A DNA stretch of 33,066 nucleotides from Nitrospirota bacterium (lineage in GTDB: Bacteria; Nitrospirota; Nitrospiria; SBBL01; JAADHI01), in the NCBI GenBank assembly GCA_029261215.1, contig JAJDBT010000062.1:1-33066 (forward strand), written 5' to 3'. This document shows positions 1-29,217 of the stretch, in pieces. The notes beneath the pieces were generated by a model. It saw nothing but the letters and a program-made list of their open reading frames with translations. It ran no database searches and was not told where the DNA came from. How positions within the stretch are numbered: the stretch's first letter is position 1; each line of letters opens with the position of its first letter. The translations under genes were made by a program, and so were the position numbers.

Positions 1-2
1 AT

Positions 3-3000
3 TCGGAAAAGACGGATGCTCAAATGGTTGCTTCTGCGGACTGGAAGGCGAAATTAAAAGCCCAGATCAAGCGAGAAGAGACGAAAGAGGGAGATACCGG
101 TCGTACATCCCAGGTGGATCGGGCGATGAGTTCCTTGATGAACGATATCAAGGGTCATGCCGAAGCCACAGGAAATACGGGCCCGTTCAGCAACTTGAGC
201 GCAATGCAGCAAATGGACCGGAGCTGGTTTCTTGGGCCGACCGGCGCGGGTGAATCTGTCATGTCAGGCGGCCTTTGTCCGAGTAATGCGCCTGTAAAAA
301 AACTGGATATTACCGCGATCAACGTGGAAGTCACCTTGAATCAGTGGCTCGATTTTCATCCGGGCTACATGTATGCGATGACCAAAGATCTCCCTGCGAT
401 CAGAGAGGAAGAACGCATCAATCGGGAAGCCCGTGATAAACCGGGTTTTGATCCGGGTGCAGTGTCTTTAGGGCTTCAGACCGACAAGATTACTCCTCTG
501 ACAATTCGTGGAAATCAGGGCGATTGCATGATCATTACCCTCCGCAATAAGGTCGAAGAAGAAGATGTTGGTCTCCACATTCACGGATCCAGCATGGTGA
601 TTCAAGCTACCGGTCAACCGGCGACTTCGGTCAATCCGGATTCGAACGTAAATCCTGAGAAAAGCCAGGTTTTTGAATGGTACATCCAGCCCGATGAGCA
701 GGAAGGCGCGCACGTCTTTCATAGCCATGTGGGGCGTGAACCCGGTAGTCTGGGATTGATCGGAACTTTTATCGTGGAACCCATGGGATCGATATACCTT
801 GATCCGGTCACGGGTGAGGTCGCTGAAAGCGGCTGGCAGATGATGATTGCCTATGACGACAAAATTGATCCTGTTTCCAAAGATTTCCGTGAATTTGTCT
901 TGGTTTATCACGAAGTGGGAGATGAGTCTTTCCGTCCGCTGAACCGGGATGGAGAAATGATTCCGCAGCGTGATCCGAACACCGATGCCTATCGTCCTTC
1001 CGCACGTGCTTTGAACTTTCGTTCAGAGCCTTTCGGGATCAACAACCTGGCGATGCAGGAAAAATATTTTCATTTTGAAGATGAATCCATGGCCTACAGC
1101 TCCTATACCTTTGGAGATGCGCCAACCACCGTTCCCCGGTCCTACATGGGTGACCCTGCAAAATTCCGTCTGGTGCATGGTGGTGGAGAAGTCTTTCATT
1201 CCCATCATCCACACGGCGGCACCATTCGCTGGCTGCGTCAGCCCAAGGCCGATGGCAAAGGCGAAGAGCTTTTGACCGCCGCCTGGGACAACCCCGTGAA
1301 ATTTCCCGTGATCCGAACCACCTCTGATCGCGTGGACGTCGAAGTTATCGGGCCGTCTGAAGTGCTTGACCTTCAAACCGAATGTGGTTCCGGTTTGTGT
1401 CAGCAGCTGGCCGGAGACTTTCTTTTCCATTGTCACGTCGCACATCACTATGTGGCGGGCATGTGGGGTTACTGGCGGGTATACAACACCATCCAGTCGG
1501 GAGACTATCCCTTTGTCAGCACCGACGCCATGGTGCCCTTGCAGGAATTGCCCGACCGTAAAGGCCGGATGAAACCCGCAGTCACTTCCGACAAACTCGT
1601 CGGAAACACCATGGACTGGTTTGACAAAAAATGGAACATCACCAAAAAAACCTCAGACTGGTCGAAGCCCATTCCAGACGTTTCCATCAAAGAATGGGTC
1701 AAAATGCTGCTTCCTCCTGCGGGAGAGCCTGGGCATACCTCTGACGAAAAAGGTCAGATCGTGGCCTATGACGGGACCGTTTGGGACTGGACCTGGGATG
1801 GCTTAAAAGCCCTGGGAGAAAAAGAAGACACCGGGCAGTTTGCGAACCCGAAATACAAAAGTCCGATGCCTGGGAAACGGCCACCGATCATGTTTGAACG
1901 CAAGACGGGGAAACTGGCCTGGCCGCACTTTAAACCCCATTTTGGGAAACGTGTGCCCTTTGCCCGTCATCATGGGCCGGCCCCCTGGCTGGAACCCTTC
2001 CATATGGAAAAAGACAACGGTGCCTTGCCGACCGATCCGGGCAGTATTGGTGCGCCGGGAGAAGAAACCTCCCAGCCCGCCCGTCCGGGTGAGCATGGCC
2101 GCTGGAGCCTGTGTCCTGAAGGTGCCGGTCGTAAACAATACACCATCCACTTTATTCAAACCCCGATTACCATGAACGAAGGCATCGGGGAGCAGAGCAA
2201 AGTGGTGGATCCTGACGGACTCATCTACGTCCTGCATGAAGACGTCGCCAAAGTCCGGGCAAACCCGGACCTTGCGAAACCGCTGGTATATCGTGCGAAC
2301 GTGTATGACTGCATCGACGTCATCTTGAAGAGTGAGTGGATTGATAACAACGTCACAAACTTTCAGATGTCGAAGATCAATATTCATCCTCACTTTATTC
2401 AGTTTGACAACCAGGCCTCAGACGGCGTGATCACAGGATTTTCCTATGATCAGTCGATGCGGCCTTTTACGATGCTGGGTAAAAAAGAAACACGCGGCAT
2501 GCCCGCACCGATGAACGCATTGGTGGTGGAGCCCGTCCGACTGGGTTCAATGAGCATCAAGGTCAAGATGGGAGAAGGGGCGACGCCTTTTCATGAAAAT
2601 ACTGACATCATGATCGGCATGCATGAAGTGGAGACTTCCGAAATCCGCTGGATTCGGAAGATCGAACATGACGCTGCAACGGGTGTAGATACCCTTACCT
2701 TTAGCGAACCCTTGAGCCATGCCCACAAAAAGGACGAAATCGCGTCTGTGGAGTGGGTGCGTTATCGTCTCTGGGCAGATGCCGATGTCGGTACCGTTTT
2801 CTGGCATGACCATGCCTTAGGTGGAACCACCTGGCCGCATGGCGCGGTTGGCGCGTTGATCATTGAGCCTGTTGGATCGACTTATCATGATCCAGTAAAC
2901 GGCAAGCAGATTCGAAGCGGCCCTATCGCGGATATTCACTCCATGGAACCTGTTGGTTCTGGCTATAGCGGTAGCTTCCGTGAAATGGTCTTAATGCTTC

Positions 3001-4835
3001 ATGACACCGTGCCTTATACGGCACAGGTTGTGACAGAAGGCAATCCGCCAGGACAGACCAAACGGGCTGCGATTGATGCGGGTCAGGTGTTGTTTTTCCA
3101 GATGCCATACGATCTGGATTTTACTGCGGCACCGATGCTCAATGGTGGAACGCATACGACAGGGGGCGGACTCTTCTTTAGAGCAGAATCCATTGCCAAA
3201 CGTTTGCAGAACAACCCGGATCCTTCATTGGTCTTTTCGAGCATTGCTCATAAAAAGGATCCTGGTACGCCGCTTCTGAAGGCCTATCTGGGCGATACAA
3301 TGGTGTTCAGAACATTGCATACCATGATGAATGAAACGCATACCTGGCACATTGCAGGACATGCCTTCAAAACCGAGCGTTATGCAGAGAAATCAGATCT
3401 TCGGAATGCGCATCACATCGGGATCGCGGAACGATATGATTTCGTAACCCGAGCCGGTGGACCGCAGAAAATGGCGGGAGACTATCTCCACTATAACGGT
3501 CGTACTTCGCATCTGGCCGAGGGCAGCTGGGGGATTATCAGGGTAATGGATGAAAAATCTGATGATCTGAAGGTATTACCTGGGCATGAAATTATCCCCA
3601 AGTCAGCGAAGAATGTGTGTCCGGAAGGCGCACCTGTGAAGCGCTTTAACGTGGTTGCAACGGATATGGCGATGAAGTACAACCCGAATTCACCTGATGT
3701 GATCGAGGTGGATTTTGACCGGAAACTTCAGGTCTCCAATCCGAAGGGCAAGCTCTTCATGCTCGAAGGAGACATGGCCAAAGTGGCAGAAGGTGCGATG
3801 CCGCATCCACTGACGCTTCATGTCAATTCCGGGGACTGTATCAAGGTCAAACTTCGGAACAACCTGAAGGAGCATAAAGCGTCTTTTAGCGCCGACATGC
3901 TGGCCTTTGATCCTAAGGATTCTCACGGCGTGAACGTCGGAAACAATCCTGGGGACCAAACCGTTGCACCGGGTAAAACACGAACCTACACCTTCTATGC
4001 GCCGCCGGAATATGGCGAGTTTGCAGCGATTGTGTGGGATTGGGGTAACTTCATCAACTCCGTCCGGGATGGTTTGTTTGGCGGCATCATTGTTGGACCT
4101 CGGGGTGCAAAATATCGCGATCCGATGACTGGTGAAGATGTCTCCCTGAAAAATGCCTGGGCCGTAGATGTGATCCTGGATCGGACGAATCCAAAAATGG
4201 CGATGCGTTCGGACTATCGTGACGTCTCGCTGTATTTTCAGGATGAAGACAACATCATCGGAACCGCGTTTATGCCCTACATCCAGCAGATTGCTGGTTT
4301 GACAGGTGTGAACTACCGGATTGAACCCTGGATGTATCGAGAAGAGAATGGTTGTGAGTTGGGTACCATGTTCCAGCCTTGTGTTGCGGGATCGACTGAT
4401 CCTGTCACGCCGACGATTCTTGCTCATGCAGGTGATCCGGTTCGGATCCATGTCTTCGGCGCTCATAATGAGCAGAACCAAATGTTTGCCCTTGAAGGAC
4501 ACCAATGGCCATTTAAAATCAACATGCCTGGTGCAGATATGATGAGTTCGGAAGAATTCGGAGGATCTGAGAATGTGGATGTCTTTCTTCGCGCAGCGGG
4601 TGGCCCAACACATTTGCCGGGAATTTATCTCTGGCAAAACCACCGTTTGCCATACGCAGCGGCGGGGCAGTGGGGTTACTTGAAGGTTCTTCCTGCAGGA
4701 AACCAATCGATTCTGCCGCTTAATTCAGGTGGTGGCATGGGTGGCCGAACGGCAGAAGCTCCAAAAAATGGAGTGCCAGGAGCGCTTTCAGGATTAGATG
4801 AAACACCTGGACCCGTCTCCATGATTGAAAAATAA
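3..4835 (+). CDS. Giant multicopper-oxidase-like protein with three tandem units, 5'-partial
   Basis: Residues are numbered from the first ATG (24). The frame is open to the left edge (SEKTDAQ precedes that ATG), no ribosome site lies before it and no signal peptide is seen, so the true start is probably outside the window. Three units each begin with a CP(S/E)-type motif (Cys85, Cys697, Cys1199), and the first domain of each ends with a Y-x-DP-(V/M)-(T/N)-G motif. Unit 1 has the full oxidase ligand set: H185-x-H187, H233-x-H235, H392-x-x-H395-x-H397 and H469-C470-H471-x3-H475 with Met480. Unit 2 keeps H788/H790, H928/H930 and H1106/H1109, but has Ala1111 and Tyr1157 where a His and the type 1 Cys are expected. 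Unit 3 lacks these ligands (WDW at 1338-1340). Six cupredoxin-like domains recall ceruloplasmin, but the protein is much longer. Oxidation of a metal ion or small reductant is inferred; the substrate is unknown. Confidence 0.85.
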   Translation, partial: SEKTDAQMVASADWKAKLKAQIKREETKEGDTGRTSQVDRAMSSLMNDIKGHAEATGNTGPFSNLSAMQQMDRSWFLGPTGAGESVMSGGLCPSNAPVKKLDITAINVEVTLNQWLDFHPGYMYAMTKDLPAIREEERINREARDKPGFDPGAVSLGLQTDKITPLTIRGNQGDCMIITLRNKVEEEDVGLHIHGSSMVIQATGQPATSVNPDSNVNPEKSQVFEWYIQPDEQEGAHVFHSHVGREPGSLGLIGTFIVEPMGSIYLDPVTGEVAESGWQMMIAYDDKIDPVSKDFREFVLVYHEVGDESFRPLNRDGEMIPQRDPNTDAYRPSARALNFRSEPFGINNLAMQEKYFHFEDESMAYSSYTFGDAPTTVPRSYMGDPAKFRLVHGGGEVFHSHHPHGGTIRWLRQPKADGKGEELLTAAWDNPVKFPVIRTTSDRVDVEVIGPSEVLDLQTECGSGLCQQLAGDFLFHCHVAHHYVAGMWGYWRVYNTIQSGDYPFVSTDAMVPLQELPDRKGRMKPAVTSDKLVGNTMDWFDKKWNITKKTSDWSKPIPDVSIKEWVKMLLPPAGEPGHTSDEKGQIVAYDGTVWDWTWDGLKALGEKEDTGQFANPKYKSPMPGKRPPIMFERKTGKLAWPHFKPHFGKRVPFARHHGPAPWLEPFHMEKDNGALPTDPGSIGAPGEETSQPARPGEHGRWSLCPEGAGRKQYTIHFIQTPITMNEGIGEQSKVVDPDGLIYVLHEDVAKVRANPDLAKPLVYRANVYDCIDVILKSEWIDNNVTNFQMSKINIHPHFIQFDNQASDGVITGFSYDQSMRPFTMLGKKETRGMPAPMNALVVEPVRLGSMSIKVKMGEGATPFHENTDIMIGMHEVETSEIRWIRKIEHDAATGVDTLTFSEPLSHAHKKDEIASVEWVRYRLWADADVGTVFWHDHALGGTTWPHGAVGALIIEPVGSTYHDPVNGKQIRSGPIADIHSMEPVGSGYSGSFREMVLMLHDTVPYTAQVVTEGNPPGQTKRAAIDAGQVLFFQMPYDLDFTAAPMLNGGTHTTGGGLFFRAESIAKRLQNNPDPSLVFSSIAHKKDPGTPLLKAYLGDTMVFRTLHTMMNETHTWHIAGHAFKTERYAEKSDLRNAHHIGIAERYDFVTRAGGPQKMAGDYLHYNGRTSHLAEGSWGIIRVMDEKSDDLKVLPGHEIIPKSAKNVCPEGAPVKRFNVVATDMAMKYNPNSPDVIEVDFDRKLQVSNPKGKLFMLEGDMAKVAEGAMPHPLTLHVNSGDCIKVKLRNNLKEHKASFSADMLAFDPKDSHGVNVGNNPGDQTVAPGKTRTYTFYAPPEYGEFAAIVWDWGNFINSVRDGLFGGIIVGPRGAKYRDPMTGEDVSLKNAWAVDVILDRTNPKMAMRSDYRDVSLYFQDEDNIIGTAFMPYIQQIAGLTGVNYRIEPWMYREENGCELGTMFQPCVAGSTDPVTPTILAHAGDPVRIHVFGAHNEQNQMFALEGHQWPFKINMPGADMMSSEEFGGSENVDVFLRAAGGPTHLPGIYLWQNHRLPYAAAGQWGYLKVLPAGNQSILPLNSGGGMGGRTAEAPKNGVPGALSGLDETPGPVSMIEK

Positions 4836-4928: not shown

Positions 4929-5864
4929 ATGATAAATAAAAAAACACTAATCCTTAGTTTTATGTCACTTATATTGGTAGGAGGAGTCCTAAATTTACAG
5001 GCGCTTGCTTATGAAGAAGTTGATGTGATTAATGGAGGCGCAATTGAGGGAAGAATTACCTTAAAAGGTAAACGCCCAGATGCGAGAGTTTTTGCACTTG
5101 TCAATTACCCCTTTGGCCCTTTTTGTAAAAAAATATCTGATGGGAAAGGTTATGTGCGTCTCAAAGATTTTATTGTTTCTAAAGATAAGGGTTTATGGGA
5201 AGCGGTGGTTTCTGTAAAGAATGTGACCAAAGGAAAACCCTATAGACCTACTGTGACTGATTTTGTGGCTGTGGACTGCATGTTCCATCCGACAGAGGTT
5301 GCGGATAATGAAATGTTTTCAGTCGATGAAGATGGTGAGATGCATCACGAACATCCGAATGTGGCCATTATTCATAACAATCAACGTATGAACATGATCA
5401 ATCGAGACCCCGTTGTTCATAATATTCAGGTTTTTCAGAACGAAAAAGGAAATATCATTCTGAATACGCCTTTGCCGATTTCAGATGAACCAAGAGGTGG
5501 TGTGCTGCACTATAAAAAGGGAAAACACATTTCTCAAATGATCTGTGGCATGCATGAATTTATGCAGAGTTGGGGGTTTGTCGTTGATAACCCTTATCAT
5601 GCAAAAACTGAAAAAGATGGCACATATCGTATTGATAAATTATTGCCTGGAAACTATATTGTTGAAATTTGGCATCCGCATTATAAAGTTTATAAAAAGA
5701 AGATTACGGTAAAGGAAGGAAAGACAACAAAAGTGGATTTTGCATTCGATGGTGATGAAATTACGATTCCGACTTATGAAGCACAGAAAACATTTCGAGT
5801 CGATACCGCTACGACGGAAGATACGCTTCTTAAAGAAGGAGATGACCGAATTATCATGGATTAA
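4929..5864 (+). CDS. Secreted type 1 copper (cupredoxin-like) protein with C-terminal beta-sandwich, paralog 1
   Basis: This 311-aa protein has a signal peptide that probably ends at Ala27 (ALA before YEE). His164 in DPVVHNIQ, together with Cys206, His209 and Met212 in CGMHEFM, forms a complete type 1 blue-copper ligand set. Residues about 225-275 (DGTYRIDKLLPGNYIVEIWHP) look like a carboxypeptidase-regulatory-like beta-sandwich. Cys66 and Cys117 are conserved in the paralogs and may form a disulfide. A His-rich stretch (CMFHP to HHEHP, 117-143) may add a metal site. AAGGAG (4917-4922) precedes the ATG by 6 bases. The likely role is periplasmic or surface electron transfer with the neighbouring oxidase; this is inferred from context. 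The gene is visibly A/T-richer than the oxidase gene. Confidence 0.85.
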   Translation: MINKKTLILSFMSLILVGGVLNLQALAYEEVDVINGGAIEGRITLKGKRPDARVFALVNYPFGPFCKKISDGKGYVRLKDFIVSKDKGLWEAVVSVKNVTKGKPYRPTVTDFVAVDCMFHPTEVADNEMFSVDEDGEMHHEHPNVAIIHNNQRMNMINRDPVVHNIQVFQNEKGNIILNTPLPISDEPRGGVLHYKKGKHISQMICGMHEFMQSWGFVVDNPYHAKTEKDGTYRIDKLLPGNYIVEIWHPHYKVYKKKITVKEGKTTKVDFAFDGDEITIPTYEAQKTFRVDTATTEDTLLKEGDDRIIMD

Positions 5865-5927: not shown

Positions 5928-5987
5928 AAGTAGGGGCATTAAAATTCGATCTCTCCAGCTACTTCTTGACTGAGTGCCCCTATTTTT
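5928..5987 (+). terminator. Long-loop hairpin with T tract after paralog 1
   Basis: TAGGGGCA (5931-5938) pairs with TGCCCCTA (5975-5982), with weaker flanking pairs and a loop of about 36 bases, followed by TTTTTATA. It probably ends transcription of paralog 1. The long loop lowers certainty. The GGGGCA/TGCCCC core resembles the hairpin at 4865-4903. Confidence 0.45.
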
Positions 5988-5994
5988 ATATCTT
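5966..5994 (+). promoter_or_regulatory. Putative promoter for paralog 2
   Basis: TTGACT (5966-5971) and TATCTT (5989-5994) are spaced by 17 bases. The spacer contains the right arm of the preceding hairpin. Transcription would start near base 6001, leaving a leader of about 40 bases that contains AGGAGG (6031-6036). The -35 element is good and the -10 is weak. Confidence 0.4.
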
Positions 5995-6042
5995 GAAGTG
6001 GAGGATAAGAGGGCAAGGCATTTCTTGCGCAGGAGGGAAATG

Positions 6043-6981
6043 ATGTCGAGAAAACAAATATTAATGTTATTTAACATCGTTTTATTGCTGGGTTTATTTT
6101 TTAAAAGTACATTGATTTTTGCCTATGAAGAGGTTGATGTCAGTCGTGGCGGGACAATAACTGGCAGAATCACCCTAAAAGGAGAGATTCCGGAACCGCG
6201 GGTTTTTTCTCTTTCCCTCTACCCTTTTGGAGAATTTTGTAAGAAGATATCTGATGGAAAAGGGCATGTTCTCCTCAAAGATTTTGTCGTGGGGCAAAAT
6301 GGAGGACTTTGGAACGCGGTTATTTCAATCAGGTCTGTAAAAAAGGGTAAACCCTTCCCCTTGATTCAAAAGGAATTTGTGGCCGTAGATTGCATGTTTC
6401 ATCCTGCAGATGTGGCGGCTCGTGAGCAATTTTTTACCGATGACACTGGACAGATACACCACGAACATCCTAATGTCGCCATCATTGAAAATCACCAACC
6501 CATTTCGATGATCAATCAAGATCCCATAATCCACAACATACAAGTCTTTCAAAATGAAAAAGGAAACATCATTCTCAATACACCACTTCCTGTTTCCACC
6601 AGACCCAGAGGCGGTGGTTTACATTTTGATCATGGTAAGCGCATTTCTCAAATGATTTGTGGCATGCATGAATTTATGCAAAGCTGGGGGTTTGTGGTTG
6701 ATAATCCGTATTATGTGCTGTCATCAAAAGATGGAAGTTATGAGATTGATCAAATTCTGCCAGGGGAATACACTGTAAGTCTTTGGCATCCGCATTATCA
6801 AATTTATGAAAAAAAGGTGGTGGTACCAGAAAATGGAAGTGTACGGCTTGATTTTGAATTTGATGCGAGTATAGTGAAACGTCCGCTCTATGAATCTCAG
6901 CGGAGGTTTCGCATGGATACTGCCATTCCTAAAGAACACCTGCTCCATGCAGGAGATGACCGTCTCATTATTGATGATTAA
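6043..6981 (+). CDS. Secreted type 1 copper (cupredoxin-like) protein, paralog 2
   Basis: This 312-aa protein aligns with paralog 1 without gaps along its length: signal peptide to about Ala27, Cys66, Cys117, His164, Cys206, His209 and Met212 all sit at identical positions. Two segments are identical in both, the run around QVFQNEKGNIILNTPLP and the one around MICGMHEFMQSWGF. The second ATG of ATGATG is chosen because AGGAGG (6031-6036) gives a 6-base spacing to it. A longer frame from a GTG at 5974 would start inside the preceding hairpin and would hide the signal peptide. Third-codon positions differ widely from paralog 1 while the residues are kept, which points to an old duplication under selection. 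The same electron-transfer role is inferred. Confidence 0.82.
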   Translation: MSRKQILMLFNIVLLLGLFFKSTLIFAYEEVDVSRGGTITGRITLKGEIPEPRVFSLSLYPFGEFCKKISDGKGHVLLKDFVVGQNGGLWNAVISIRSVKKGKPFPLIQKEFVAVDCMFHPADVAAREQFFTDDTGQIHHEHPNVAIIENHQPISMINQDPIIHNIQVFQNEKGNIILNTPLPVSTRPRGGGLHFDHGKRISQMICGMHEFMQSWGFVVDNPYYVLSSKDGSYEIDQILPGEYTVSLWHPHYQIYEKKVVVPENGSVRLDFEFDASIVKRPLYESQRRFRMDTAIPKEHLLHAGDDRLIIDD

Positions 6982-7075
6982 TCTGGCTTTTAAATGATTA
7001 GTCGACTACACGTATTTTCTCTAGAAAGGTCTTGGGTTTATGATTAATATGGGCAAGAGGAATAGAGGCGCAGTG

Positions 7076-7981
7076 ATGAAGAGCATTCTTGTTCTTTCCC
7101 TGGTTTTATTTGTTGTCTTCGGACATTTTGCTGAGGCATGGGCCTACGAAGAGGCGATTGTCGAGAATGGCGGAACACTGAAAGGAAGGGCTTATCTAGA
7201 AGGGCCTCCCCCTCCAGCGCGAGTCTATCATCTCATTTTTTCACCTAATATTGAGTTTTGTCGGAATATTTCAGATGGTGCAGGGAATCGTCTTTTGTAT
7301 GAATTTAAAGCCTCTCAAGATGGTGGTTTTCAGGATGTGGTTGTCGCCATCGTCGGAGTAGAAAAAGGAAAACCATTTAATTTGAAACCGATTATCTGGT
7401 TGGAAGATTGTCAAATACGGCCCTTTGTAACGCCTGTCCGTAACAATCATCCCATTACGATTGCCAGTAATGACCCTGTCGTTCATGACATACAAGGGTA
7501 TACATTAAACGGAAAGTACACTTTTCAAATGTTTAACAAACCGGTACCTGAAAAAGCCAATTTGGAAAAAGAAATTAAGTTTCGACCGGGTCACTACATC
7601 TTTAGAACGCAATGTGGTGTCCATGATTATATGCAATCATGGGGAATGGCAGTGGGAAATCCCTATTACGCAGTCACAGATAAAATGGGTCATTTTGAAA
7701 TTACAAACATTCCGCCTGGCACTTATTATGTCATGGCATGGCATCCTCACATGTCAATACAGGCGCAGCCGGTTACTATTAAACCAGACGGGACAACTGA
7801 GCTTGGATTTATTTTTGATGCTTCAGAAGTGAATATTCCATTACACGACCTTCAAACCAGTTATCGTTTACAAACATGGCTGGAGCCTAAACATTTGGTT
7901 CCACCTACTGTGGAATTACAGGTTCATGATTCACCAGAGCACTTACTCAAACCTAGGGGCTGGGCGGACCGCTTGGACTAA
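7076..7981 (+). CDS. Secreted type 1 copper (cupredoxin-like) protein, paralog 3 (divergent)
   Basis: From the ATG at 7076 the protein has 301 aa, with a signal peptide ending near AWA-YEE (Ala23). The type 1 copper ligands are His137 (DPVVHDIQ), Cys180, His183 and Met186 (CGVHDYM). The conserved Cys pair is Cys62 and Cys112. The beta-sandwich repeat follows (GHFEITNIPPGTYYVMAWHP). Compared with paralogs 1 and 2 it lacks the His-rich HHEHP loop and has a different C-terminal tail. The start is uncertain: ATG 7076 has AGAGG (7064-7068) 7 bases upstream and gives a compact signal peptide. ATG 7040 is also possible, adding 12 residues. The 3' end overlaps the convergent penicillin-binding protein gene by 29 bases. 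Confidence 0.78.
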   Translation: MKSILVLSLVLFVVFGHFAEAWAYEEAIVENGGTLKGRAYLEGPPPPARVYHLIFSPNIEFCRNISDGAGNRLLYEFKASQDGGFQDVVVAIVGVEKGKPFNLKPIIWLEDCQIRPFVTPVRNNHPITIASNDPVVHDIQGYTLNGKYTFQMFNKPVPEKANLEKEIKFRPGHYIFRTQCGVHDYMQSWGMAVGNPYYAVTDKMGHFEITNIPPGTYYVMAWHPHMSIQAQPVTIKPDGTTELGFIFDASEVNIPLHDLQTSYRLQTWLEPKHLVPPTVELQVHDSPEHLLKPRGWADRLD

Positions 7982-10538: not shown

Positions 10539-11366
10539 TTATTTTTCCCCTAATTCTCTCGAACGTTTTGTTGCCGCTTCGACCGCGCCGATAAAAGTCG
10601 CACGACAATTATGTTTTTCGAGAAAATGAATCCCCGATATCGTCGTACCGCCGGGGGAGGCGACAAAGTCCTTTAGTTGAGCAGGATGTTCCCCTGTTTC
10701 AAGAACCATTTTTGCCGAACCCAGTACGGTTTGGGCTGCGAGCGCGAGGGCTATTTTGCGAGGTAGCCCTTCCTTGACGCCGCCATCGGCCAAAGCCTCA
10801 ATCATCATAAAAGCAAAGGCGGGACCACTCCCTGAAAGCCCCGTGACAGCATCCAGGTGACTTTCTTCCAGCACCCATGTTTTTCCAATCGCATCAAAGA
10901 TTGCAAGCGCGTGTTTCAAGTGGGATGCATCTACGCCTTTTGCTGGCGCAAGCACGGTCGCTCCCGCGAGGACCTTTGCGGGCGCATTGGGCATCGCTCG
11001 AATAATCTGGGCTTCTCGTTCCAGGCCCGCAGTCAATCGGGAGAGAGGCACACCCGCCGCCATAGAAATCAATAATTTCTCGCCCAGTTCAGATCGAATT
11101 TCAGCAAGCACGGCATCCACAACATTGGGTTTCACTCCGAGAATCACCCCTTTGGCCGAGCGCACGGCCTCCCGGTTTGAAAGGGTTGTTTCTATCCTGT
11201 AGGTTTGCCGAAGCGATTTTAACCGGTCTTCGGATGTATCGGATGCCAGTAACATCTCCGACTGATACAGCCCGGTGTCGAGCAGGCCCTTAATAATGGC
11301 TTCCGACATATTGCCCGAGCCGAGAAAGGCGAGCTGGATCTTTGATTTTTTTTGTTGTGTTTTCAC
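10539..11366 (-). CDS. proC: Pyrroline-5-carboxylate reductase
   Basis: The 275-aa enzyme catalyses the last step of proline synthesis, NAD(P)H reduction of pyrroline-5-carboxylate, in the cytoplasm. The Rossmann loop GSGNM is at residues 16-20, and the family signature is clear near the C-terminus (SGSGPAF and PGGTTISGI). The length is typical. It starts with GTG, which overlaps the yggS stop as GTGA, so it is translationally coupled. Its presence beside yggS (a PLP-binding protein) and yggT is a common arrangement in several diderm phyla and in proteobacteria. It has no known direct role in division. Confidence 0.95.
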   Translation of the reverse strand: MKTQQKKSKIQLAFLGSGNMSEAIIKGLLDTGLYQSEMLLASDTSEDRLKSLRQTYRIETTLSNREAVRSAKGVILGVKPNVVDAVLAEIRSELGEKLLISMAAGVPLSRLTAGLEREAQIIRAMPNAPAKVLAGATVLAPAKGVDASHLKHALAIFDAIGKTWVLEESHLDAVTGLSGSGPAFAFMMIEALADGGVKEGLPRKIALALAAQTVLGSAKMVLETGEHPAQLKDFVASPGGTTISGIHFLEKHNCRATFIGAVEAATKRSRELGEK

Positions 11367-12040
11367 TGTGTTCTACTCCCGAAGATGGCCGTTCCGATAC
11401 GAACCCAGGTGGCCCCTTCCTCTATTGCTATTTCAAAATCAGAAGACATGCCCATCGAAAAACGATGCAGCCCAAGGTCGTTGCCGAGCTGCCGCAAAGT
11501 CGCAAAATAGGGCCTGGCTCCCTCTGCTGTTTCCGTAAGCGGTGGAAGCGCCATTAATCCCAAGAGAGAGAGGTGAGGCAAGGATTGTACGGCTTTGACC
11601 AGTAGGGGCGTTTCTTGGATAGACACCCCGTGTTTATTCGTTTCTCCTCCGATATTCACTTCAATCAAAATGTCTTGCTGAATGGATTGATGTTCCGCTT
11701 CCTGATTGAGTTTTTCGGCCAATCGAAGTGAATCGACTGAATGAATCAAATCAAATACCCCGACGGCTTTTTTGACCTTGTTGTTTTGAAGTGGCCCAAT
11801 GAGATGCAGTCTGTCAATCTCCTTGATTAATCCGGTCTCAATAAATTTTTTAATGCCTTCTTGAACTCGGTTTTCCCCAAAATTGCGCAGTCCCCACTGT
11901 ATCGCCGTCTTCACTTGAATCGCTTCGGTGGTTTTAGAGGCGGCGATCAGGGTCACGTCCTGAGGCGATCTTCCCGCGCGTTTTGCCGCTTCGGAAATTG
12001 CATTAGAAACCCGGTTCAAGGATTCAGTGATTGTCTCCAT
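11363..12040 (-). CDS. yggS: YggS/YlmE family PLP homeostasis protein
   Basis: The 225-aa protein is a single-domain PLP-binding barrel without known catalysis, involved in pyridoxal-phosphate balance. The expected PLP lysine is Lys36 in LIAASKT. The conserved HLIGPLQNNK and the phosphate-binding C-terminal segment SMGMSSDFEIAIEEGATWVR (cited as a landmark), followed by GTAIFG, are present. It begins 5 bases after pgeF ends and overlaps proC at its own end. Known homologs occur as ylmE in Gram-positive dcw clusters. Confidence 0.95.
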   Translation of the reverse strand: METITESLNRVSNAISEAAKRAGRSPQDVTLIAASKTTEAIQVKTAIQWGLRNFGENRVQEGIKKFIETGLIKEIDRLHLIGPLQNNKVKKAVGVFDLIHSVDSLRLAEKLNQEAEHQSIQQDILIEVNIGGETNKHGVSIQETPLLVKAVQSLPHLSLLGLMALPPLTETAEGARPYFATLRQLGNDLGLHRFSMGMSSDFEIAIEEGATWVRIGTAIFGSRTQ

Positions 12041-12045
12041 GGGTT

Positions 12046-12786
12046 TTAGAGTAGCATAATCCCGCTGACCATGTTCCCCATCTTTTTTTTATCTCTCCTG
12101 AAGGAATAAAAGAGGTTGGGCAAACAATGTGTGCACAGCCCGGCCGCTTCGATTTGCTGTGCGGGAACGCCAGCTTCAATCAATTGCAGCCGATTCAATC
12201 TCACCAGATCGAGCCGATGTTTCTCTACGCCCTGCGGCATCTCTTTTTGAGAAAAGACCCATTCTCCGTAAGGGGTGTTCTCGTATACGGACTCGACGAC
12301 ATCCAGGCCCACTTCAAAACAGCAAGGTTTGATGCTTGGCCCAATACCCGTGAATAGATCTTCAGGGTTGCAATGATAGTCTGACATCATTTTGCGCACC
12401 GCTTTTCCGGCAATATCCTGGACACTGCCACGCCAACCGGCATGAATGGCGGCACTGACCCTCTTGACCGGGTCCAGCAGGAGAATGGGGGTGCAGTCTG
12501 CTGTGCCGACCGAGATGAAGCGATTGACCGCATCGGTGATTAATCCGTCTCCCGGAATTGCCTCAAAAAGTAAATTCTCTTGTGAGGCATGGACGCTTTG
12601 GATATGGTCTCCGTGAACCTGCCGGAGTTTGGCGGGCGCGTAATGATTCTGCACATCTTCCGGCGGGAGCAGTCGTGTCCCAAAGAGATGAAAGACATTG
12701 GGATGATTTAACATTGGAAGCTGGAGATATCCTTTCCCATTGTTTTGTACCCATTGATAGGACTGATGTTGTTCTTGCGCGAGCAT
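12046..12786 (-). CDS. pgeF: PgeF/YlmD family polyphenol-oxidase-fold peptidoglycan editing factor
   Basis: From the ATG at 12786 the protein has 246 aa. It carries the family metal triad: His58 (QVHGD), Cys98 (TADCTP) and His115 (IHAGWRG). Homologs remove peptidoglycan precursors carrying L-Ser in place of L-Ala (E. coli YfiH/PgeF), and some bind zinc or oxidise phenols. This start is preferred because it forms TGATG with the ftsZ stop and has AGGTGG 4 bases upstream. A longer reading from 12825 would run 40 bases into ftsZ. Placement directly after ftsZ supports the wall-related role. Confidence 0.9.
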   Translation of the reverse strand: MLAQEQHQSYQWVQNNGKGYLQLPMLNHPNVFHLFGTRLLPPEDVQNHYAPAKLRQVHGDHIQSVHASQENLLFEAIPGDGLITDAVNRFISVGTADCTPILLLDPVKRVSAAIHAGWRGSVQDIAGKAVRKMMSDYHCNPEDLFTGIGPSIKPCCFEVGLDVVESVYENTPYGEWVFSQKEMPQGVEKHRLDLVRLNRLQLIEAGVPAQQIEAAGLCTHCLPNLFYSFRRDKKKMGNMVSGIMLL

Positions 12787-13940
12787 CAATCCACCTGATT
12801 TCTCAAAAAGGTCGGAATATCCCATAAATCTTCTCCAAATTGTGAGGGCTCCTGGCGCTCTTCACGCAAGACTTTTCTGAGATGGGCGACTTTTTCCCGG
12901 CTCGTTTGCATGGGCTTTTCTTCAACCTCAGGCATTTCTTTCCGGGGTTCTTCCTGTGGGTGTTCTTCAAGCTGGATTTCTTCAAATCCTGTGGCGATGA
13001 CTGTCACACGGACTTCATCCGCCGGAATATTTTCCGAAATGACTGCGCCAAAGATAATATTGGCATCCATATGGACTATTTTTTGAATAATAGACGAGGC
13101 TTCACTGACTTCATGGATGGAAAGATCTCGCCCACCCGTGACGTTCAAGAGTACGCCGCGAGCGCCTTCGACCGAGCTGTCTTCCAAGAGGGGACTGGAG
13201 ATGGCAATTTTCGCCGCTTCGATTGCGCGGTTTTCCCCTTTGGCAATGCCCATGCCCATGACGGATCGGCCCATATGAGACATAACGGCACGCACATCGG
13301 CAAAGTCCACATTCATGAGTCCTGGTGTCGTGATGAGGTCTGAAATCCCCTGGACCGCCTGTCGTAAAACATCGTCGATCACCAGAAAAGATTCAACCAG
13401 CGGAGTGCCTTTTTCAACGACATCCAAAAGCCGCTGGTTGGGAATGATGATGACGGAATGACAGCCTTTTTTGAGTTCTTTGAGGCCATCCTCTGCCTGT
13501 CGCACCCTTCGTGGGCCTTCGAAGTCAAAAGGTTTTGTGACGACCCCGACTGTCAAAATGCCCATTTCTTTTGCGATACTGGCAATCACAGGCGCAGCGC
13601 CGGTGCCTGTCCCGCCGCCCATGCCGGAGGTCACAAACACCATATCGACATCCGTCAGCATTTCGCGAACGAGATCAACCGACTCCAGTGCGGCTTCACG
13701 GCCGATTTGAGGTCTTCCTCCCGCGCCTAGTCCACGTGTCAGCTTTACGCCGAGTTGGATCTTCTGTGCTGATTTTGAAAGATTTAAAGCCTGAATATCT
13801 GTATTGGCGGCGATGAAATCAACCCCGACCACATCGGAATGGATCATGTTGTTGATGGCGTTACATCCTCCGCCCCCGACCCCGATGACCTTAATTCGCG
13901 CTGCCCTTGAATTTTGATCTTCTTCATCAAATAAAAACAT
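12786..13940 (-). CDS. ftsZ: Cell division GTPase FtsZ
   Basis: The 384-aa tubulin homolog polymerises into the Z ring at mid-cell. The nucleotide-binding GGGGCNAIN is at about residues 22-30, the tubulin signature GGGTGTG at 108-114, and the catalytic T7-loop region is [11 protein letters not shown]. The C-terminal tail carries the conserved DIPTFLR peptide, which binds FtsA and other membrane anchors, as the last residues before NQVD. A strong AAGGAGG (13945-13951 on the forward strand) precedes the ATG. It follows ftsA by 70 bases, the largest gap among ftsQ-A-Z, which holds a hairpin. Confidence 0.98.
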
Positions 13941-13958
13941 ATAACCTCCTTGTTGTTA

Positions 13959-13977
13959 GGGGAGACCCCCGCTCCCC
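13959..13977 (-). other. G/C-rich hairpin between ftsA and ftsZ
   Basis: A 6-bp stem of GGGGAG and CTCCCC encloses a 7-base loop. No T tract follows on the minus strand, so it is not a typical terminator. It sits 7 bases upstream of the ftsZ ribosome site and could affect ftsZ mRNA stability or relative FtsZ output. Confidence 0.4.
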
Positions 13978-14010
13978 CGGATAAGTGATCAGCAAAAAAT
14001 AGATAAGATA

Positions 14011-15231
14011 TTAAAAAAAGCCTTTGACCCAGGTTTTCATTCTCTGCAGCATGTTTTGCTGCCCATTATGACGAACTTCTTTTTTCTTTTTGTTCCTAAA
14101 GGCATACAGGGTGAGCCCAACGCCTGTGGCATATTGAGGGCCGCTGACAACATCGATCAGACCACCCACGTCCGTTGGAACGCCAATGCGAACCGGCAGA
14201 CCTAAAACCCGCTCAGCGACCTCAACAATACCATTGAAAGAAGCGGTTCCGCCGGTGAGGACGACGCCTGAAGCGATTCGGTCTTCATCGCCCATTTTTT
14301 CAATCTCCTGAGCCACAAGTGAAAAGATTTCTTCTGCCCGTGGTTCGATAATTTCAGCAAGGAGTTGACGGGAAAGCATCCGAGGAGGGCGGCCGCCGAC
14401 ACTGGGGACTTCGATTTGCTCATTTCCTTCGAGTAAATCCACAGAAGCACAGCCATATTGAATCTTGATCTTTTCAGCATCCGCTCGTGGTGTTCTCAGC
14501 CCAATGGCGATGTCATTTGTAAAATGGGCGCCCCCAATCGGGATGACTGCGGTGTGTCGAATGCCGCCATCGACAAAAGTCGCGATATCCGTTGTGCCGC
14601 CGCCTATGTCCACCACAGCCACGCCCAACTCTTTTTCTTCCGGTGTCAAAATGGCTTCTGCGGAGGCAATGGGTTGAAGAATCATCTCTGCCATATCAAG
14701 TCCGGCACGATTGATGCTTTTTTCGATGTTTTGCGCGGCAGTGACCGCGCCGGTGATAATATGCACCCGTACTTCAAGACGGACGCCCGACATGCCGAGC
14801 GGTTCTTTAATGCCGTCCTGATGATCAATAATAAATTCTTGCGGCAGCACATGAAGAATTTGCTGGTTCCCCGGAATGGCCTGTGTTCGGGCGGCGTCGA
14901 GTACACGTTCGATATCGCCTTGCATCACTTCTTGGTCTTTGACCGCGACAACGCCGCTGCTGTTTAATCCTTTGATGTGGCCTCCCGCGATGCCGGTATA
15001 AACCACGCCAATTTCAATGCCCGCCATTAATTCCGCTTCTTCCACGGCCCGTTTGATTGATTTGACCGTGCTTTCAATGTTGACGACCATTCCTTTTTTT
15101 AAGCCGGTGGAAGGGTGGCTCCCAATGCCGATGATATCGATCCGTTTGTCATCAATAACCTCCGCAACAATCGCGCAGATTTTTGTGGTGCCGACATCAA
15201 GACCGACGATAATTTCTTCATGTTTGGACAT
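14011..15231 (-). CDS. ftsA: Cell division protein FtsA
   Basis: The 406-aa actin-like ATPase tethers FtsZ to the membrane. The phosphate-binding GLDVGTTKICAIV motif is near the N-terminus, and further actin-fold motifs are visible (VVDIGGGTTDIA and VLTGGTA). The C-terminus (MLQRMKTWVKGFF) is a basic, hydrophobic amphipathic segment typical of the FtsA membrane anchor. The start at 15231 is chosen because AGGA lies 6 bases upstream and it falls 13 bases after the ftsQ stop. A longer frame to 15435 only reads through ftsQ sequence. Confidence 0.96.
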   Translation of the reverse strand: MSKHEEIIVGLDVGTTKICAIVAEVIDDKRIDIIGIGSHPSTGLKKGMVVNIESTVKSIKRAVEEAELMAGIEIGVVYTGIAGGHIKGLNSSGVVAVKDQEVMQGDIERVLDAARTQAIPGNQQILHVLPQEFIIDHQDGIKEPLGMSGVRLEVRVHIITGAVTAAQNIEKSINRAGLDMAEMILQPIASAEAILTPEEKELGVAVVDIGGGTTDIATFVDGGIRHTAVIPIGGAHFTNDIAIGLRTPRADAEKIKIQYGCASVDLLEGNEQIEVPSVGGRPPRMLSRQLLAEIIEPRAEEIFSLVAQEIEKMGDEDRIASGVVLTGGTASFNGIVEVAERVLGLPVRIGVPTDVGGLIDVVSGPQYATGVGLTLYAFRNKKKKEVRHNGQQNMLQRMKTWVKGFF

Positions 15232-15244
15232 AAGGGATCCTTTC

Positions 15245-16084
15245 CTAAAAATAATACATACCAGGGTCGCGCTGAATGACGCCCTTTTTCGCGATGGCTT
15301 TGTTAGAAAACCGAAGGTCGATTTCCCATGTGGAGAACCCGTGTTTTTCAAGGTCGGGTTCGATTCGCAAATACTTTTGCCATTTTTCCTGAAAGTGATT
15401 TTTGCCAAGATGAAGCAGGCCGATCTGCTGACCACTCTGGGAGTCAGTGAAAAAAATCCTCAGGTTTTCAGAGTCCGAGAGGTCAATATAGACACCCCGG
15501 CGTTCTTTCAGCAGCGCGCCTATCGAAAGGGCTGAGGCATAGGATTCGAGGTTGACGTTCAACATTTGCGGTAAATTCGGGGGAATTCGGCCGCCTTGCT
15601 GTAAGGTGACGCCTTCCTGATCAATCAAGTAAGGGGCGCTTGAAAAATCCACGAGGGTGCCGGATTGTTTTCCATGCTCGTATTCCACAGATGCAGGTTT
15701 TCGTTCGACGACAATCACAAGGAGTTTATTTGGATATTCTTTTTTAACCGTTGCCGACTTGATCCATTGATTGGAGGAAAGCCTCTGATGGATGGCTTTG
15801 ATATCCACTTGAAAAAGGTTTTGGCCGAAGACGGTATGAAACTGTTTTTTCATCTTTTTTACTTTTAAATGCTGCAGTCCGACCCAGTGAATTTCACGAA
15901 CTTCAAAAACAGGCAGTCGGCTGAGTTTTTCAAAACCGAGTGTCAGGCTAAAAAGACCCGCGCCAAAAATGAGTGCAATCGCCAATATCCGCATTGCGCC
16001 TTGCAGCGACATTTTGACCGATTTTGTTTGCCGTGCCTTGCTGGCTTTTGGCTTTTTTCGTCGTTTATTGACTTTAGCGGACAT
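15245..16084 (-). CDS. ftsQ: Cell division protein FtsQ
   Basis: This is a bitopic inner-membrane protein of about 279 aa. The N-terminal cytoplasmic part is very basic (KVNKRRKKPK...), then a membrane helix occupies about residues 30-50, followed by a POTRA-like domain beginning near FEVREIHWVGLQHL and the FtsQ domain (LLVIVVERKPASVEY). It scaffolds the divisome with FtsL and FtsB. The start is uncertain: ATG 16084 overlaps ddl by 11 bases and has GGAAA upstream, while ATG 16096 would add four residues. Order ddl-ftsQ-ftsA-ftsZ is as in E. coli. Confidence 0.92.
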   Translation of the reverse strand: MSAKVNKRRKKPKASKARQTKSVKMSLQGAMRILAIALIFGAGLFSLTLGFEKLSRLPVFEVREIHWVGLQHLKVKKMKKQFHTVFGQNLFQVDIKAIHQRLSSNQWIKSATVKKEYPNKLLVIVVERKPASVEYEHGKQSGTLVDFSSAPYLIDQEGVTLQQGGRIPPNLPQMLNVNLESYASALSIGALLKERRGVYIDLSDSENLRIFFTDSQSGQQIGLLHLGKNHFQEKWQKYLRIEPDLEKHGFSTWEIDLRFSNKAIAKKGVIQRDPGMYYF

Positions 16085-17024
16085 GCGTATTTCCATATTC
16101 TGTGCTGGCGTGTTTTAAAATGGTTTCTACCAAAAGATCAAAGTCGATTCCGTTTTCACGGGCCATTTCAGGCATCAGGCTTGTTTCTGTCATGCCGGGC
16201 AGGGTATTGACCTCTAAAATACTGGGGTTCATTCCGGCGTCCACCAAAAAATCAACGCGGCTATAACAGTTGCAACCCAAGGCTTGATGGGTTTTTTCTG
16301 CGAGCTGAAGTACCTTTTGATACGTCGCCGGGGGAAGAGGGGCCGGGTAAATATGCGTGGACATCCCCGGAACATATTTTGCCGTGTAATCATAAAAATC
16401 GCCTTTGGGCTTTACTTCGATTGCCCCAAGAGCCCGGTCTTCCAAAATGCCGACATGCACTTCCATGCCGGAGATATAACGTTGAATAATCGCTTTTGTG
16501 CCGTATTTGAAAACGCTTTTCAGCGCTTCCGAAAAATCTTCGGGGTTTTTAACAATAGAGACGCCGACACTTGAGCCTTCTGAAACCGGTTTGACGACAA
16601 AGGGCAGAGGCATTGGTAGGGTTTGTGGCGAAAAGTTTTGGGCTTCTTCCTGTGTCAAAATGAGGGTCTCAGGTGTGGGCAAGTCCCGCGCCTTAAAAAT
16701 ATCGTGGGATCTCATCTTGTCCATCGCGATGGCGCTTGCGGCCATTTTTGATCCCGTATAGGGAATCTGCATTATTTCAAGCAGTCCCTGTATTGCGCCG
16801 TCTTCACCGTAGCGTCCGTGAAGGGCGATAAAGGCAATATCGATGCGTTCCTTTTTTAATGTCAAAGCAATGTCCCGATCAACATCAATCGAAACCTGCT
16901 GATACCCCAGTCGGGATAGCGCGGCGGAAACGGCTGTGCCGCTTTTTCGGGAGATTTCCCGCTCTGAGGAAAGCCCGCCCATCAATACTCCGATGCGCTT
17001 GGTTTTTAAATTCTTCTGGATCAA
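16074..17024 (-). CDS. ddl: D-alanine--D-alanine ligase
   Basis: The 316-aa ATP-grasp enzyme joins two D-alanines for the peptidoglycan stem peptide. The N-terminal GVLMGGLSSEREIS, the ALHGRYGEDGAIQGLLE region, the FVVKPVSEGSSVGVS ATP-grasp motif and the LEVNTLPGMT active-site segment are all present. The start is a TTG at 17024, three bases after the murB stop; no in-frame ATG occurs before the conserved GVLMGG motif, and AGGAC lies about 8 bases upstream. The length is typical for the family. Confidence 0.95.
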   Translation of the reverse strand: MIQKNLKTKRIGVLMGGLSSEREISRKSGTAVSAALSRLGYQQVSIDVDRDIALTLKKERIDIAFIALHGRYGEDGAIQGLLEIMQIPYTGSKMAASAIAMDKMRSHDIFKARDLPTPETLILTQEEAQNFSPQTLPMPLPFVVKPVSEGSSVGVSIVKNPEDFSEALKSVFKYGTKAIIQRYISGMEVHVGILEDRALGAIEVKPKGDFYDYTAKYVPGMSTHIYPAPLPPATYQKVLQLAEKTHQALGCNCYSRVDFLVDAGMNPSILEVNTLPGMTETSLMPEMARENGIDFDLLVETILKHASTEYGNTHVR

Positions 17025-17027
17025 TGT

Positions 17028-17972
17028 CTAGTCCTGTCCTGTGACTTTCACTTCCAGCTGCAGGGCAATGCCGAAGAGATCAAGCACAGTTTCTTTCATT
17101 TTTGAGATGAGCGCCAGGCAGTCTTCTGCTTTTGCGCCGCCCCGGTTGATAATGAAATTACCATGTCGTTCAGAAATTTCGGCATCCCCGATTCGATACC
17201 CTTTTAACCCGCTTTGCTCAATCAGACGCCCCGCATGAAGCCCTGGCGGATTTTTAAACACTGAGCCGCAATTTGAAAAACTTAAAGGCTGGGTTTCCTG
17301 TCGTCTTTTTAGATAGGTCTTCATGGTCGTTTCGATGCTTTCCCGTGATGCAGAGGTCAGGGCGAAGACGGCTGAAACGATCACCCCTTTGGGAAGCTGT
17401 GAGGTGCGATATGAAAAAGACAGGGTCTCTGCGGGAATTTTTTCGGATATGCCCTGTTCGTTTATCAGTGTGATGCTTTCCAAAAGCGGGGCGGTTTCCA
17501 TGCCGGGAATCCCTGCATTCATGACAACAGCGCCTCCGACCATGCCGGGGATGCCTGCGGCAAATTCAAGTCCGGTCAGTCCTTTTTCCATGGCAAAGAT
17601 TGCAAGCTTGGGATAGGAGAGCCCTCCTTCGGCCTGAAGACGGTTTCCATCCAGCAATTTGACGTGATTTAAATGTTTGAGGTGAATGACGACCCCTTTG
17701 ATTCCACCGGGTTTGATGAGCAGGTTGCTTCCGGCTCCCAAAACAAAGTAGGGGAGACGATGTTTCCAGATGGTTTTCATAATGGACGACAGCTCCGGGA
17801 CGGTCTGTGGAAAAACCATCATATCTGCGGCCCCGCCCACTTTGAGGGAGGTGTAGCGGGTGAGCGGCTCATCCCATCTTATTTTCCCGTCATAGTGTTT
17901 AAACAATGTTTTAAGCTTGTTTTTCAGCGCGATGCGCGCGGCTTTTATGTCATCCAGTTCAGTCACGATCAT
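17028..17972 (-). CDS. murB: UDP-N-acetylenolpyruvoylglucosamine reductase
   Basis: This FAD enzyme of 314 aa reduces UDP-GlcNAc-enolpyruvate to UDP-MurNAc. FAD-binding segments TSLKVGGAAD and LGAGSNLL are present, with GMVGGAVVMNAG, the catalytic-Ser motif CGSVFKNP and the C-terminal HGNFIIN, which together fit the shorter MurB type. The start at 17972 is chosen because AAAGGA lies 8-9 bases upstream and it gives only a 14-base overlap with murC. A longer reading from 18023 would overlap murC by 65 bases. Confidence 0.95.
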   Translation of the reverse strand: MIVTELDDIKAARIALKNKLKTLFKHYDGKIRWDEPLTRYTSLKVGGAADMMVFPQTVPELSSIMKTIWKHRLPYFVLGAGSNLLIKPGGIKGVVIHLKHLNHVKLLDGNRLQAEGGLSYPKLAIFAMEKGLTGLEFAAGIPGMVGGAVVMNAGIPGMETAPLLESITLINEQGISEKIPAETLSFSYRTSQLPKGVIVSAVFALTSASRESIETTMKTYLKRRQETQPLSFSNCGSVFKNPPGLHAGRLIEQSGLKGYRIGDAEISERHGNFIINRGGAKAEDCLALISKMKETVLDLFGIALQLEVKVTGQD

Positions 17973-19359
17973 CTTCTTTTGTCCTTTGGCTTTTTGAGGG
18001 ATCAGATAAAAAATGTTGCCCAACCTTCCAGATATCTCCTGCCCCGAGGGTCAGTAACATCATCTCTGGTTTTGCAATCTGCACGAGCATGTCTTCTATT
18101 TCTGAAAAATGTTTGAGGAAATAAGTGTTCTGTTCCCGCTGCTCCATGACTTTTTTGAAAAGCCGCTCTCCGGTGATATTGGGAATCGGGCTTTCTCCCG
18201 CTGGATAAATTTCTGTCAAAATCAGGTGATCCGCTTCGGCAAAAGCGGTCGCTAATGTGTCGAGGCAATCCCGTGTCCGCGTGTAACGATGGGGTTGGAA
18301 GACAACAATTAATTCTTTTTCCCAGCCTTGTTTGGCTGCGGCGATGGCCGCCCGTATTTCGGTGGGGTGATGCCCATAGTCGTCCACCACGATGAGGCCT
18401 TCTTTTTCTCCACGAAGCTGAAATCGTCGTTCAACGCCGGGGAAGGCTGCAATGCCTTCTTGAATCACAGTTGCCGGTAGATCGAGTTCGATGCCAACGG
18501 CGATTGCGGCCAAAGCATTTAATACATTGTGGCGACCCGGTGCGGGAAGCTCAAACTGCCCAAAAGGTTCTCCCTGAAACGTCACATCGAAGGTGCTTTT
18601 CCAGGGATGATAGGCGATGTTTTCGGCACGGAGATCAAGGCCATCTGTTGTGCCATAGGTAAGAAATCGTTTTTCAATTTTATGGAACATCTTTTTTAAA
18701 ATCGGATCGTCTCCGCAAAGAATGACCATTCCGTAAAAGGGGACTTTGTTCATAAAGTCCAAAAAGGTCTGTTGGAGGATTTCAAAGGTTTTATAATAAT
18801 CCAGGTGTTCATAGTCCAGATTCGTCACAATGGCGATGCTGGGGGAAAGCTTGAGAAAAGAGCCGTCGCTTTCATCTGCCTCAGCGATGAGAAATTCGCC
18901 TTCTCCTTTTTTAGCATGCCCATCGAAGGTGTTGACTTTTCCCCCGATGACCGCAGTGGGGTCAAGTTTTCCTTCGGACAGTAGTGTCGCGATCATGGTG
19001 GTTGTCGTTGTTTTGCCGTGTGCGCCTGCTACTGCAATGCCGTATTTAAGTCGCATTAATTCCGCAAGCATTTCGGCCCTGGGAATGACCGGTACTTTTT
19101 TCTCTTTGGCGGCCACGATTTCGACATTATCTTCCCGGATGGCGGAGGAATAGACCAGAACTTCCGCTCCCTTAATAAAGCGTGCGTCATGCCCCCGGTA
19201 TATTTTCCCACCCATCGCCTCCAGGTGGGCCGTCCGCTCCGTACTGGCCATGTCAGAGCCGCTGACAAAAAACTTCATGTTTAGCAGGATTTCTGCAATG
19301 CCGCTCATGCCTGCCCCACCGATGCCGGTGAAGTGAATATGTTGGACTTTTCTAAACAT
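17959..19359 (-). CDS. murC: UDP-N-acetylmuramate--L-alanine ligase
   Basis: The 466-aa Mur ligase adds L-Ala to UDP-MurNAc. The N-terminal Rossmann motif HIHFTGIGGAGMSGIAEIL and the ATP-binding P-loop GAHGKTTTTT define MurC. The central NLDYEHLDYY and the C-terminal DDYGHHPTEI and FQPHRYTRT motifs agree. Length is typical. The gene follows murG by 9 bases, with no clear ribosome site at normal distance, so it may rely on coupling with murG. It overlaps murB by 14 bases. Confidence 0.97.
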   Translation of the reverse strand: MFRKVQHIHFTGIGGAGMSGIAEILLNMKFFVSGSDMASTERTAHLEAMGGKIYRGHDARFIKGAEVLVYSSAIREDNVEIVAAKEKKVPVIPRAEMLAELMRLKYGIAVAGAHGKTTTTTMIATLLSEGKLDPTAVIGGKVNTFDGHAKKGEGEFLIAEADESDGSFLKLSPSIAIVTNLDYEHLDYYKTFEILQQTFLDFMNKVPFYGMVILCGDDPILKKMFHKIEKRFLTYGTTDGLDLRAENIAYHPWKSTFDVTFQGEPFGQFELPAPGRHNVLNALAAIAVGIELDLPATVIQEGIAAFPGVERRFQLRGEKEGLIVVDDYGHHPTEIRAAIAAAKQGWEKELIVVFQPHRYTRTRDCLDTLATAFAEADHLILTEIYPAGESPIPNITGERLFKKVMEQREQNTYFLKHFSEIEDMLVQIAKPEMMLLTLGAGDIWKVGQHFLSDPSKSQRTKEDDRD

Positions 19360-19368
19360 CAGTGTGTT

Positions 19369-22982: not shown

Positions 22983-22988
22983 TGGATC

Positions 22989-28862: not shown

Positions 28863-28905
28863 AAAGGGTTCCTCTCAGAGTGATCTGGCTGAGTGGATAA
28901 GCCGA

Positions 28906-29205: not shown

Positions 29206-29217
29206 TTTTTACCTGTG

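Follow-up and report, generated by a model that had tools for sequence, protein, structure and literature searches.

A six-domain, MnxG-type multicopper oxidase of the Nitrospirota with a probable active site between its first two units

The oxidase gene and its 5′-end

The window analyzed here is a 33,066-nucleotide (nt) stretch of DNA, contig JAJDBT010000062.1 of a Nitrospirota bacterium (assembly GCA_029261215.1), and its first gene encodes a large multicopper oxidase. A preliminary description, made from the sequence, had read this gene as a tripled oxidase with graded loss of copper sites.

3–4835, plus strand: six-domain multicopper oxidase, 5′-truncated at the contig edge; 1610 amino acids (aa) shown, ~1646 aa with the upstream piece

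The frame is unbroken over 3–4835 and reaches the 5′ contig edge still open. Contigs C124 and C63 of the same genome end in the same 113 nt that begin the window, and reading upstream on them revealed signal-peptide-like N-termini (MERSGRNILRGLLALLLTFSAQGWALA... and MDNTKRYSLSVFFAFVLIFSSQAWVLA...). The start previously placed at ATG24 is an artefact of the contig edge, since the frame is open upstream of it and runs on into the signal peptide. Either contig may lie upstream of the window. Because signal-peptide-like starts lie upstream on both, the full-length oxidase is, by its deduced sequence, ~1,646 aa long and is probably exported.

A second copy of the oxidase in the same genome (92% protein identity) is broken at the same place. 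The window copy (1–4835) and L003 (contig C121, minus strand) are two paralogues of one genome with mosaic identity, 96–98% near 1–250 and 1000–1500 and 79–80% elsewhere. Within the genus, oxidase paralogues of one genome cluster together. This clustering and the mosaic identity suggest, at the sequence level, gene conversion or a recent lineage-specific duplication.

Three homologous units form six cupredoxin-like domains

The oxidase was divided as follows, with unit limits from hhalign comparisons between units.

261–1583, plus strand: unit 1 (residues 80–520; domains 1 and 2)
1584–2090, plus strand: linker between units 1 and 2, with conserved His571, His639 and His650
2091–3593, plus strand: unit 2 (residues 690–1190; domains 3 and 4)
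3603–4793, plus strand: unit 3 (residues 1194–1590; domains 5 and 6)

Unit profiles were sub-alignments of these residue ranges from 51 homologues. Units 1 and 2 matched each other with E 4.5e-25, units 1 and 3 with E 2.6e-29, and units 2 and 3 with E 1.7e-28. Domains 1, 3 and 5 matched one another, as did domains 2, 4 and 6, and Pfam placed three Cu-oxidase_3 stretches in the protein. Since the unit-to-unit matches are well beyond chance, the tripling is real as judged from the profiles: three homologous two-domain units, hence six cupredoxin-like domains. The three tandem oxidase-like units of the preliminary description are thus borne out, the unit-by-unit profile search confirming that the segments are homologous, and its shared motifs are present in the sequence, namely the opening motifs at Cys85, Cys697 and Cys1199 and the Y-x-DP-x-x-G motifs at 258–264, 954–960 and 1364–1370. 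The length of the protein, regarded as unusual against known ceruloplasmin-type proteins of about 1050–1150 aa, is not so, because bacterial six-domain oxidases of 1,217–2,681 aa have been described (PMC3600357).

Predicted copper ligands are invariant in domains 2 and 3

Ligand conservation was scored in 72 homologues (the 51 above and 21 further sequences), down to ~52% identity. Four motifs carry the predicted copper ligands.

1197–1214, plus strand: domain 2 HSHHPH; H392 (type 1), H395 and H397 (trinuclear); invariant in 72/72; aligns with MnxG H281/H284/H286
1428–1463, plus strand: domain 2 HCHVAHHYVAGM; H469 and H471 (trinuclear), C470, H475 and M480 (type 1); invariant in 72/72
2385–2393, plus strand: domain 3 HPH; H788 and H790, putative trinuclear ligands from unit 2; invariant in 72/72; HIH in MnxG
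2805–2813, plus strand: domain 3 HDH; H928 and H930, putative trinuclear ligands from unit 2; invariant in 72/72; HDH in MnxG

As expected of MnxG-like six-domain oxidases, type-1 ligands (H392, C470, H475 and M480) are confined to domain 2, and the trinuclear His residues fall by sequence in domain 2 (H395, H397, H469 and H471) and domain 3 (H788, H790, H928 and H930); all twelve are found in every homologue. In domain 4, Tyr1157 aligns with His469 and the position of the type-1 Cys is occupied by Asn1158 (Asn or Asp in homologues). The corresponding Cys position of domain 6 is Asn1539.

The trinuclear sites of six-domain oxidases have been placed at the 1/6, 2/3 or 4/5 interfaces, and that of bacterial six-domain oxidases has been reported between domains 2 and 3 (PMC3600357). 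Because the domain 2 and 3 ligands are invariant, the domain 1 His residues are not, and the pattern is like that of MnxG, we consider it probable that the protein is a six-domain MnxG-type oxidase whose active site is formed jointly by units 1 and 2.

The preliminary description had instead proposed that unit 1 alone is catalytic, its domains 1 and 2 holding both copper centres, and that units 2 and 3 serve as binding or structural scaffolds. It is literally true that unit 1 contains the letters of all type-1 and trinuclear ligands (domain 1 His185, His187, His233 and His235 plus every domain 2 ligand), and the domain 1 His residues are constant in the clade of the window (21/21). However, the domain 1 set is incomplete in 42/72 homologues, whereas the domain 3 His residues, which belong to unit 2, are invariant, and the contact of domains 1 and 2 within a single unit is not among the interfaces at which trinuclear sites have been placed (PMC3600357). 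We therefore judge a self-contained unit 1 very improbable. No evidence was found for attachment of substrate, mineral or surface by units 2 and 3.

The graded site loss itself stands in part. Copper sites have been lost unevenly, probably leaving one full centre, but unit 1 is not self-contained. Unit 2, said to keep most His, does have Ala1111 and Tyr1157 at ligand-equivalent positions, but this understates a domain 3 that is a complete, invariant trinuclear half. Unit 3, said to have none, nearly fits that claim, except that His1540 occupies a trinuclear-ligand position and co-segregates with the domain 1 His residues.

A possible second metal site at the domain 1/6 interface

576–584, plus strand: domain 1 HIH; H185 and H187; full four-His set in 30/72; aligns with ascorbate oxidase H60/H62
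720–728, plus strand: domain 1 HSH; H233 and H235; aligns with ascorbate oxidase H104/H106
4641–4643, plus strand: domain 6 H1540, equivalent to H471 and candidate partner of the domain 1 His residues; present in 30/30 sequences with the full set and 0/42 others

Among the 1,603 alignment columns of the 72 sequences, that of His1540 is the only one with perfect association to the complete domain 1 set. In the clade of the window, where only 35% of the positions of domain 1 do not vary, the four domain 1 His residues are constant. Two separate clades combine the full set with His1540, and they include distant paralogues from genomes G008, G010, G019 and G027 (54–57% identity); parsimony on a midpoint-rooted tree required two changes for each character. 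Because independent events are so few, the association is suggestive, not proven. The domain 1 His residues of the lineage of the window nevertheless do not look, in the alignment, like mere leftovers.

In ceruloplasmin the trinuclear site is held by domains 1 and 6 (PMC3600357). The oxidase of the window departs from a complete site of that type, as domain 6 keeps one of the four trinuclear positions (His1540). It is possible, if tentative, that H185, H187, H233 and H235 form with H1540 a second metal site, without a type-1 copper, at the domain 1/6 interface. From the alignment, H187, H233 and H1540 correspond to ascorbate oxidase H62, H104 and H508, which we take to be one complete type-3 copper set. 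Because of this match, the 1/6 site may hold a single metal bound by three His, reminiscent by analogy of the type-2 copper of NirK. Such a site may serve substrate metal binding or extra redox chemistry.

Relationship to MnxG and other known oxidases

The best solved relative by sequence is the Mn(II) oxidase MnxG of Bacillus sp. PL-12 (PDB 9bxa, E 9.3e-83), and profile matches to MnxG reached 4e-113 and 6e-112. AlphaFold models of two overlapping parts of the protein were too low in confidence for ligand distances, and only their Foldseek ranking was used: with both weakly modelled halves 9bxa came first (E 1.3e-45 and E 3.4e-33) and ceruloplasmin second. MnxG likewise has six cupredoxin-like domains, with HVFHYH and HCH...M in domain 2 (the HxxHxH and HCH...M of a type-1 site) and, in domain 3, HIH and HDH. 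The MnxG counterpart of H475 in the alignment is position 340, an Ala in 9bxa, which is the structure of the H340A mutant. The two proteins differ in length (1,227 aa for MnxG vs. ~1,646 aa here), share ~20% identity, and part ways in domain 1, whose His residues MnxG has not retained; the protein of the window also has a longer linker between units 1 and 2 and cupredoxin genes downstream. Assignment as a canonical MnxG was rejected on the missed curated NF041487 cut-off (119.6 vs. 3100 bits).

Like ceruloplasmin and hephaestin, the oxidase has six domains from three two-domain repeats, in keeping with the fold match, but its full site maps to domains 2/3 and its type-1 site to domain 2 only. 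The ceruloplasmin relation, together with weak hits to the models of ascorbate oxidase, CopA and CueO, would fit a copper- or iron-detoxifying enzyme, a cuprous or ferrous oxidase in the manner of CueO or ceruloplasmin. We regard this as unlikely: no copper export or iron uptake genes were identified adjoining the oxidase, the protein is far larger than CueO, and most genomes carry two or more copies.

The NXR clusters of Nitrospina gracilis and Candidatus Nitrospira defluvii hold such an oxidase, and its likeness to MnxG of Bacillus SG-1 has been noted (PMC3578206); the Nitrospina records retrieved here belong to the same family. Nitrospina and the NxrA-bearing lineages have lost the domain 1/6 His residues, whereas the order of the window keeps them and has no detectable NxrA. 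Candidatus Manganitrophaceae, also a Nitrospirota lineage, have two novel multicopper oxidases per genome (PMC9040806), which may well belong to this family.

These comparisons indicate that (i) the oxidase is, by sequence, of the bacterial six-domain MnxG-like kind already known in Nitrospirota and Nitrospinota; and (ii) what is new here is the corrected, predicted anatomy of its active site and the coupled retention of a partial, putative 1/6 metal site.

Downstream cupredoxin-like genes

Three paralogous genes lie directly 3′ of the oxidase.

4929–5864, plus strand: CP1, predicted exported protein with a cupredoxin part and a carboxypeptidase-regulatory-like part; ligands H164, C206, H209 and M212
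5974–6981, plus strand: CP2, second paralogue
7040–7981, plus strand: CP3, third paralogue

All three begin with a signal-like sequence, bear the pattern H164...C206-x2-H209-x2-M212 in their N-terminal part, and have a carboxypeptidase-regulatory-like domain at the C-terminus. No Pfam cupredoxin domain was found in CP1–CP3, and Cupredoxin_1 matched one of the 16 family members, weakly (E 0.16). Their assignment as cupredoxins comes from the invariant ligands (H164, C206 and H209 in 100% of the family alignment, M212 in 98%) and from their profile, which weakly matched a blue copper protein of known structure (E 0.0023). A cupredoxin-like gene lay ≤300 nt downstream on the same strand in 53 of the 79 oxidase frames with enough downstream sequence. 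Genome G014 has two more genes immediately 5′ of the oxidase and its cupredoxins: another multicopper oxidase frame, of 1630 aa (L094, 470–5359, plus strand), and one for a beta-propeller protein.

From this arrangement the CP proteins are likely redox or copper partners of the oxidase. A conserved tandem linkage to predicted cupredoxins with invariant type-1 ligands would also suit a cupredoxin oxidase, that is, a periplasmic terminal oxidase with the downstream blue-copper protein as its donor and no direct oxidation of metal; the NXR cluster of nitrite oxidisers that holds this oxidase also carries cupredoxin-like genes (PMC3578206). However, metal ions are the substrates of MnxG and of ceruloplasmin-type enzymes, and many second copies of the oxidase in Nitrospinota have no adjacent cupredoxin gene, so that we hold this alternative to be rather unlikely.

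Other genes of the window

On the minus strand, ~10539–30168 encodes a division and cell wall cluster (proC, an alanine racemase-like gene, FtsZ, FtsA, MurG, FtsW, Mur ligases, an FtsI-like transpeptidase and RsmH), and DivIVA and a second transpeptidase lie between it and the oxidase operon. At 31064–33066 (minus strand) is a Ser/Thr kinase frame whose Pkinase match begins at profile position 89, the N-lobe being missing. Before it, at the contig edge, lies a putative C-terminal fragment of a transposase, consistent with disruption of the kinase frame by an insertion element.

Taxonomic spread and relation to nitrite oxidation

The oxidase was found in 97 of the 98 genomes of the class-wide set of relatives, usually in two or more copies. 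Almost all named relatives are Nitrospirota and Nitrospinota records, and the few other taxon labels, on short contigs, may be binning errors. PF00384 was a poor detector of NxrA, as carriers scored weakly; NxrA was therefore sought with a full-length NxrA-like query, itself related to DMSO reductase type II and NarG subunits. This query matched 54 of the 98 genomes and none of the 18 in the order of the window. A tie of the oxidase to nitrite oxidation was rejected, since the query found no NxrA in those 18 genomes while the oxidase is present in 97/98. Several near-complete genomes of family f6 (among G054, G061, G037 and G041) gave no NxrA match, unlike most f6 genomes; this is a real absence or an assembly gap, although G054 is a single contig.

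Luecker et al. (2013) proposed for Nitrospina and Nitrospira that Mn(III) made by the oxidase scavenges superoxide (PMC3578206). Such an oxidase was reported there in both genomes, which were said to lack superoxide dismutase and catalase (PMC3578206), and its class-wide presence regardless of NxrA fits a general role. The proposal is speculative in its source, however, and leaves the cupredoxin neighbours unexplained; we consider a defence against reactive oxygen quite unlikely.

Proposed mechanism

We propose that the exported oxidase would take up substrate electrons at the type-1 copper predicted in domain 2 (H392, C470, H475 and M480) and pass them via the His-Cys-His bridge to a trinuclear centre with ligands from both domain 2 (H395, H397, H469 and H471) and domain 3 (H788, H790, H928 and H930), where O2 would be reduced to water. 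Domains 4–6, with their type-1 sites lost, would mainly complete the ring of six domains, and the one to three downstream blue-copper proteins would carry electrons or donate copper. For the substrate, a metal ion in its reduced state is the most likely candidate, if a tentative one: Mn(II), or Cu(I)/Fe(II). A metal is favoured because of the relationship to MnxG and because several close relatives bear the OFTM prefix of genomes from the Fe/Mn-oxide biofilm of the Oslofjord tunnel (PMC10732223). None of the papers found demonstrates the substrate of this oxidase family.

Several observations weigh against this scheme. The protein falls far below the cut-off of the MnxG equivalog NCBIfam NF041487, and the AlphaFold models of residues 75–1190 and 690–1603 reached mean predicted local distance difference test (pLDDT) values of 53 and 64, a low confidence at which clustering of the ligands in three dimensions was not seen. 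The occurrence of the oxidase in almost all nitrite oxidisers speaks against a role confined to Mn lithotrophy, direct O2-coupled oxidation offers no clear path of energy conservation (PMC9040806), and the habitat evidence from the OFTM prefix is indirect.

Significance

Six-domain oxidases have been traced to a presumed ancestor that had three trinuclear sites, at most one of which survives in any present-day member (PMC3600357). The oxidase described here belongs to a family found in nearly all genomes of its class, including major nitrite oxidisers, usually in several copies. Within it the predicted interfaces form a natural series, in which one is complete, one survives in part, with gains or losses coupled between the domains that face each other, and one is erased. 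This series would provide a direct handle on how six-domain oxidases lose or repurpose their sites.
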